Shown here in pieces: positions 43,384 through 47,640 of a stretch of DNA of 64,000 bases (positions are counted from its first letter, which is position 1; every line of letters starts with the position of its first letter). The stretch comes from Myxococcales bacterium. GTDB taxonomy: Bacteria; Myxococcota_A; Polyangia; Polyangiales; Polyangiaceae. The stretch covers positions 1 to 64,000 of the forward strand of contig CANJCO010000012.1 in assembly GCA_947473045.1 (NCBI GenBank), given 5' to 3'. Position numbers and translations under genes: made by a program. The notes under the pieces were generated by a model. The model did not search any database. It saw only the letters and a program-made list of their open reading frames with translations, and had not been told where the DNA came from.

Positions 43384-45318
<1,935 letters not shown>

Positions 45319-45344
45319 GCGCCCTTTACCGCCCGCTGTGAAAG

Positions 45345-45384
45345 CGGCGCTTCGGCTGACCCCGGAGCGCCGTTTTTCTTTTTG
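45345..45384 (+). terminator. Intrinsic terminator of the ftsH unit
   Basis: The stem CGGCGCT..CGG with CCG..AGCGCCG is followed by TTTTTCTTTTT. It ends 27 bases before the tandem array. Confidence 0.9.
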
Positions 45385-45410: not shown

Positions 45411-45558
45411 GTTCACACGCCTGAACGTGGGTGTTCACACGCCTGAACGCGGGTGTTCACACGCCTGAACGTGGGTGTTCACACGCCTGAACGTGGGTGT
45501 TCACACGCCTGAACGCGGGTGTTCACACGCCTGAACGCGGGTGTTCACACGCCTGAAC
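45411..45558. repeat. Seven-copy 22-bp tandem palindromic repeat
   Basis: The 16-bp core GTTCACACGCCTGAAC occurs at 45411, 45433, 45455, 45477, 45499, 45521 and 45543, separated by 6-bp spacers GYGGGT; the core is identical in all seven. It is an inverted repeat (GTTCA-N6-TGAAC). It sits between the two opposing terminators of ftsH and the ompA-like gene, in the only 370-bp gap of the window without a gene. I see no start codon or promoter in the gap. A protein-binding array (iteron-like) or recombination/partition site is possible. Confidence 0.9.
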
Positions 45559-45590: not shown

Positions 45591-45627
45591 CAAAGAAAAA
45601 GCCCCCCGCCTGCGAAGGCGGAGGGCT
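45591..45627 (-). terminator. Intrinsic terminator of the OmpA/TSP3 gene
   Basis: A 12-bp stem (45600-45611 with 45616-45627, one G-T pair) is followed on the minus strand by TTTTTCTTTG, 64 bases past the gene's stop codon. Confidence 0.9.
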
Positions 45628-45690
45628 CGTTCGGTCACGCGAGGAGCTCGCCGTGGGCCTCCCGCGCTTGCGGGCAGGAGGCCTGCGGCT

Positions 45691-47640
<1,950 letters not shown>

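Follow-up and report, generated by a model that had tools for sequence, protein, structure and literature searches.

Dispersed arrays of a 22-bp near-palindromic unit at gene ends in one Myxococcales genome: possible binding sites for a dimeric protein

Seven copies of one short palindromic sequence lie in a row in the gene-free gap between ftsH and a gene of the OmpA family, which raises the question of what such a row does there and whether it is alone in its genome. The window (i.e., the whole 64,000-nucleotide stretch analysed here) covers the opening 64 kb of the 92,559-base contig C12 from a Myxococcales bacterium (G000), whose 5.15-Mb draft genome comprises 138 contigs, is reported to be 99.98% complete and has a GC content of about 69%.

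The array and its gap

The locus consists of the following features:

43384 to 45318, + strand: ftsH-like gene, 644 aa, convergent left neighbour of the array (ORF, translation)
45340 to 45377, + strand: intrinsic-terminator-like hairpin with T tract, 3' of ftsH (terminator scan)
45411 to 45558, + strand: array of seven 16-bp cores, GTTCACACGCCTGAAC, period 22 bp, spacers GYGGGT (repeat analysis)
45599 to 45628, - strand: intrinsic-terminator-like hairpin with T tract, 3' of the OmpA-family gene (terminator scan)
45691 to 47640, - strand: OmpA-family gene, 649 aa, convergent right neighbour (ORF; C-terminal OmpA domain by inspection)

The name ftsH comes from a first, sequence-only reading of the window and from AAA/HEAGH motifs recognisable in the translation; an ORF in a genome of the same genus (G001) is 82% identical to this FtsH, and the G001 homologue of the OmpA-family gene is split. 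Between the ftsH stop at 45318 and the OmpA-family stop at 45691 (- strand) no gene is present, and the array begins 92 bp past the former.

The sequence-only reading had described seven identical tandem copies with 6-bp spacers that vary only T/C at one site, and both descriptions are correct. Specifically, GTTCACACGCCTGAAC occurs in seven exact copies (starts at 45411, 45433, 45455, 45477, 45499, 45521 and 45543) at a strict 22-bp period, the six spacers read GTGGGT or GCGGGT, and TRF reports a period of 22 bp with 6.9 copies. Dinucleotide shuffles of the window yielded at most four core matches even with three mismatches allowed, against the seven exact ones observed, and this result, together with a reversed-pattern control that is absent from the genome, rules out a chance origin.

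Three further descriptions held in part. The copies are exact, but the 16-bp inverted repeat is an imperfect palindrome, with 5-bp arms (GTTCA/TGAAC) around an asymmetric centre (CACGCC). The proposal that 22 bp, as about two helical turns, would place bound proteins on one face holds locally; two turns of B-DNA span 21 bp and, because the period exceeds this by one, each unit is rotated about 34 degrees from the last unless slight unwinding of the DNA makes up for it. Finally, a gene-free gap between two terminators is a true description of the window copy, but the terminators are peculiar to it, as the same simple scan found no intrinsic terminator within 250 bp of the other arrays described below.

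The window also opens (positions 1–148) with a 148-bp dispersed element bounded by TAGCAGG...CCTGCTA and containing several hairpins. Among the retrieved stretches of this genome are at least 14 more copies, 81–100% identical and in several cases at contig ends, and the element appears to be a MITE that interrupts the assembly.

A lineage-restricted family at gene ends

Genome-wide there are 65 exact copies of the core, which answers the sequence-only reading's call for a search for further copies. These cores and their variants form 16 dispersed arrays on 12 contigs, of 3–8 units each and 73 units in total, in which every within-array spacing is exactly 22 bp (16/16 arrays). The whole-genome core search placed them as follows:

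C1: four arrays
C19: two arrays
C12, C15, C31, C47, C51, C75, C80, C82, C102 and C121: one array each

The C102 array extends to the contig end, and the four on C1 lie within 48 kb; a clustering of the latter around origin or terminus was considered and set aside, GC skew being too weak to position the arrays. Copy number that varies widely among close strains without a conserved core had been named as the mark of a plain slippage repeat: the number does differ between arrays (3–8), but the core is strictly conserved.

Outside this genome the family is not seen. Two neighbouring units with up to three mismatches are absent from all other genomes among 184 of the same order, and 58 close relatives hold only isolated one-mismatch matches at chance level. 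A general two-unit pattern, searched in about 85,000 species genomes, returned no copy with the window's core, and plasmid and phage collections gave no match to the array.

These distributions bear directly on whether the arrays are replication iterons or a partition site, as had been suggested. Their form is similar to that of iterons, and some viral matches of equal spacing sit within replication-initiator-like genes. On the contrary, there are sixteen dispersed chromosomal arrays and no plasmid or phage match, dnaA lies on contig C17, which carries no array, and no rep or par gene flanks the arrays examined. The proposed check for a nearby replication or partition feature thus returned only unrelated neighbours, and we regard this reading as extremely improbable.

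The arrays lie almost exclusively at the 3' ends of genes, most starting 4–14 bp from a stop codon. Of the 14 arrays that could be classified, 7 lie in convergent gaps, which make up 12.5% of intergenic bases (p 7e-4), and 1 lies in a divergent gap, where the share of intergenic bases is 37% (p 0.015), the background being 430 kb of fetched stretches with codon-based gene calls made in this analysis. In one case (L010), a decayed first unit even provides the stop codon of a Mur-ligase-type gene. The flanking genes are functionally unrelated and, lacking a common function, do not form a regulon; of the serine/threonine-kinase/TPR paralogues, just two have an array at the 3' end.

Comparison with G001 suggests turnover. 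Two orthologous gaps are readable there, and neither has an array: a peptidase/VWA pair converges with about 19 bp between stops, and an acyltransferase pair with about 2 bp. Arrays were thus gained or lost at these two gaps since the lineages split and, as G001 leaves so few bases, are dispensable for those gene pairs. In the acyltransferase neighbourhood, two same-orientation arrays (a and b; L009 5043–9302, C1:106542–110801) bracket a 4-kb DUF1275 plus VIT/VWA segment, which G001 lacks between the corresponding genes. The C121 array (L026) shows 72–75% flank homology, on one side to the C1:133 kb array and on the other to the C47 array (L019, L010), and it has a similar variant unit in common with the C47 array. 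From sequence comparison, arrays may either have moved together with their flanks or recombine with one another.

In G001, other dispersed repeats, GTCATCCTGAGGCGGAGCCGAAGGACC and TTTCACCTCTCGCC, lie 3' of ftsH and of the OmpA-family gene (L061, L062), as if gene-end gaps accepted whatever repeat family a lineage carries.

The main rival to the explanation that we favour below is quite possible: the arrays could be a selfish or neutral dispersed repeat (a REP/MIRU-like minisatellite) with no cellular function, propagated through slippage, through recombination or by a trans-acting enzyme, with insertions other than those at 3' ends purged by selection. Lineage-specific presence, with absence from the readable G001 gaps, fits such a repeat, and placement after stops and in convergent gaps would be the residue of purifying selection on insertions. 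The decayed edge units of some arrays, the bracketed DUF1275/VIT segment, the flank homology of the L026 array with L019 and L010, and the other repeats behind the G001 ftsH and OmpA genes are all consistent with it. However, no transposase flanked by arrays was seen, the genome has no Y1_Tnp gene, and simple copying has difficulty with the anatomy of the unit (see below).

Short arrays built on the same half-sites do occur elsewhere. A species-genome scan for GTTCA/TGAAC arrays found 27 stretches against about 0.2 expected by chance, and viral contigs gave 5 matches against 1, 3 and 0 for control half-sites of the same design and 3 for a longer spacing. The viral controls imply that short palindromic arrays are generally commoner than chance; given those counts, we do not claim a pan-bacterial GTTCA/TGAAC array family. 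Arrays of 22-bp period with GTTCA/TGAAC arms and different centres were observed in Ktedonobacteria (L044, L037), Desulfobacterales (L039) and Bacteroidales (L032), some of them several per 8 kb. Six Amycolatopsis genomes (L030, L046, L051, L052, L053 and L054) have a pair of GTTCAGCSSGCTGAAC palindromes 22 bp apart, which in L051 lies directly past a predicted stop codon. Phage replication-initiator-like genes (L056, L057, L059, L033 and L055) contain 22-bp-period GTTCA/TGAAC repeats that recall lambdoid origin iterons.

Among family members, a few 22-bp arrays with other cores occur in G003, G007, G015 and G032. We rejected these as the same system with other cores, the G015 case being a single locus and the G007 case lying next to an apparent transposase start. 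In G007, a 22-bp-period AAATCGGGCATCGTGAAC repeat occurs at three places (L107 14356–14464, L175 and L176) with shared flanks, near an apparent IS21-type transposase start, and these are probably multiple terminal repeats of an insertion sequence. Across 574 intergenic regions, 22 bp is the commonest period, solely owing to the window's own genome.

Unit anatomy and candidate binding sites

The unit has a fixed part and a changing one. Over all units, departures from the core number 0/730 in the arms and 11/438 in the centre. Because the arrays had been recognised by their arms, we recounted on interior units (arms 0/410, centre 5/246, p 0.007) and again with three decayed edge units included (arms 5/760, centre 13/456, p 0.005); the contrast is weaker after the recount, yet it stays. 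No array consensus differs from the core in its arms, in a listing that allowed up to two mismatches and with arrays found through core similarity, which biases against diverged cores. The perfect-palindrome variant GTTCAGACGTCTGAAC occurs within two arrays plus one lone copy genome-wide, and GTTCAGACGCCTGAAC occurs as three lone copies. Single copies of GTTCAGACGYCTGAAC (C4:22391, C14:72523, C45:19542 and C67:9143; three inside predicted genes) are commoner than base composition predicts.

The 6-bp spacer, by comparison, is near-uniform within an array, with 16/342 changes from each array's own consensus, and mostly array-specific, with 12 distinct consensuses among 16 arrays that always read R-Y-S-N-R-T. 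At the array edges, RT precedes the first core in most cases and RY follows the last core in all. Since these bases are kept at the outer cores, the arrays consist of whole RT-core-RY sites with two free bases between them, i.e., the true unit is a roughly 20-bp near-palindromic site plus two free bases.

An unchanging core between spacers that diverge, spared arms, constrained flanks, whole sites at the ends and a fixed period are together the pattern expected of a row of sites for a cooperative dimer. A selfish repeat propagated by simple copying, in contrast, leaves unexplained both the constant core beside array-specific spacers and the sparing of arms relative to centre. Our leading explanation, held tentatively and with a little less than even confidence, is that the arrays are cooperative binding sites for a putative dimeric DNA-binding protein, tolerated at gene ends and with some cellular role. 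The earlier idea of an array of protein-binding palindromes is thereby supported indirectly, through its constant arms, constrained outer bases, 22-bp period and whole end units. Several points count against binding sites: the neighbouring genes have no function in common, G001 lacks the arrays, recent slippage alone could conserve the units within one array, recognition of arrays by their core disfavours diverged cores, and the asymmetric CACGCC is mostly conserved, although two-fold symmetry alone would not call for this. Both a tolerated repeat and a patch between transcription units would fit the gene-end placement and the lineage restriction.

In the model that we infer, each array would offer 3–8 contiguous sites of about 20 bp (RT-GTTCA-CACGCC-TGAAC-RY) to one dimeric, sequence-specific protein of this species, the two free bases between sites allowing one dimer per 22 bp and possibly cooperative contact. 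A single site in a gene-end gap may have been tandemly amplified, or an array copied along with its flank, and arrays would persist mainly where harmless, immediately 3' of stop codons and between convergent genes. Once bound, the row would most likely form a local protein patch, serving as a nucleoid anchor, as a roadblock or insulator between transcription units, or as a protein reservoir. A more specific version, in which a private, fast-turnover protein and its arrays patch the ends of transcription units while the core stays fixed and spacers and positions turn over, strikes us as rather doubtful.

An alternative that acts on RNA, namely that tandem hairpins in the transcript terminate transcription or shield mRNA 3' ends, in both directions between convergent genes, is distinctly unlikely in our view. 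The closeness of arrays to stop codons suits it, as does the scarcity of nearby terminators (only the window array has any within 250 bp), and the array transcripts of L009, L015 and L020 fold far better than shuffles (z -5.7 to -11.8). Strong folding of several arrays follows, however, from the self-complementarity of tandem palindromes, and one strand of the window array folds no better than shuffles (z -0.9). The outer bases of interior cores show no RNA-stem co-variation (A opposite C is the commonest pair, 19/41), so that, with folding also strand-dependent, we rejected an RNA hairpin with an extended stem. The arrays face either way with respect to the upstream gene, which is the expectation for a symmetric DNA site. 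Terminator scans found no GC-rich hairpin with a direct U tract within any array and no T tract after the arrays, and Rfam 15 at gathering score returned only an unrelated tRNA from six array loci. Detected intrinsic terminators are in any case rare across this genome (2/40 convergent gap ends of at least 60 nt); their lack beside arrays is therefore uninformative, and we dropped the notion of arrays as substitutes for missing terminators. The window array, moreover, already lies between two good terminators, and the same-genus G001 manages without arrays.

The 73 clustered sites, mostly away from promoters, would also suit a titration or storage array, i.e., multi-copy decoy sites for a transcription regulator. 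Yet none of the arrays has a recognisable regulator gene next to it, promoters yielded no operator built on this core, and LexA, the obvious GTTCAG binder, has a box of 4-bp spacing in its own promoter here, so that this reading appears very improbable.

If the arrays are occupied, they would provide identical multi-site binding platforms throughout the genome, which arose within one genus and lie nearly only at gene ends, and would offer a natural test of whether rows of protein act as roadblocks or insulators where genes converge. If unoccupied, they are a clear palindromic repeat family with no recognised transposase, in which spacers diverge around a fixed core. In both cases, the 16 loci can serve as strain-typing markers for this organism.

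Comparison with known systems

LexA boxes of myxobacteria (M. xanthus consensus) have the half-site GTTCA(G)/CTGAAC, which the arrays share, and nothing more. LexA boxes have the spacing CTGAAC-N4-GTTCAG and lie in promoters. We rejected a LexA array, given the N6 spacing and gene-end position of the arrays against the CTAAGC-N4-GTTCAG box of the lexA promoter in this genome.

In form and size, a single array resembles the lambdoid phage origin, where imperfect inverted repeats of ~19 bp stand in a row and are bound by the O protein initiator (PMC7466680). The lambdoid case, however, is one origin inside the initiator gene, whereas here 16 dispersed arrays occur with no initiator gene.

REP/BIME elements are dispersed, regularly spaced extragenic palindromes; the known examples bind proteins and have been connected with the organisation of the chromosome and with termination (PMC2817692). 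They come nearest in placement and palindromic nature, the arrays too being extragenic and at gene 3' ends. They differ in their GTAG/GTGG or CGTC-type end tag (the arrays lack it, their units being RTGTTCACACGCCTGAACRY in 16/16), in hairpin length (20–40 bp, against a 16–20 bp core), in alternating rather than direct unit orientation, and in number (more than 100 dispersed copies, against 73 units in 16 arrays). A search for the REP-associated tyrosine transposase (RAYT; Y1_Tnp, PF01797) gave 0 matches in G000 and G001 and was positive in 5 of 14 control genomes; with neither this gene nor the tag, REP/RAYT membership is rejected.

MIRU/VNTR loci repeat one kind of tandem unit across many intergenic sites, each site with a copy number of its own. 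The arrays resemble these minisatellites of mycobacteria (term as in PMC3635867) in that they too are a dispersed tandem unit in intergenic DNA (16 arrays, 12 contigs), but their unit is only 22 bp long and near-palindromic, and combines a constant core with a locus-specific spacer.
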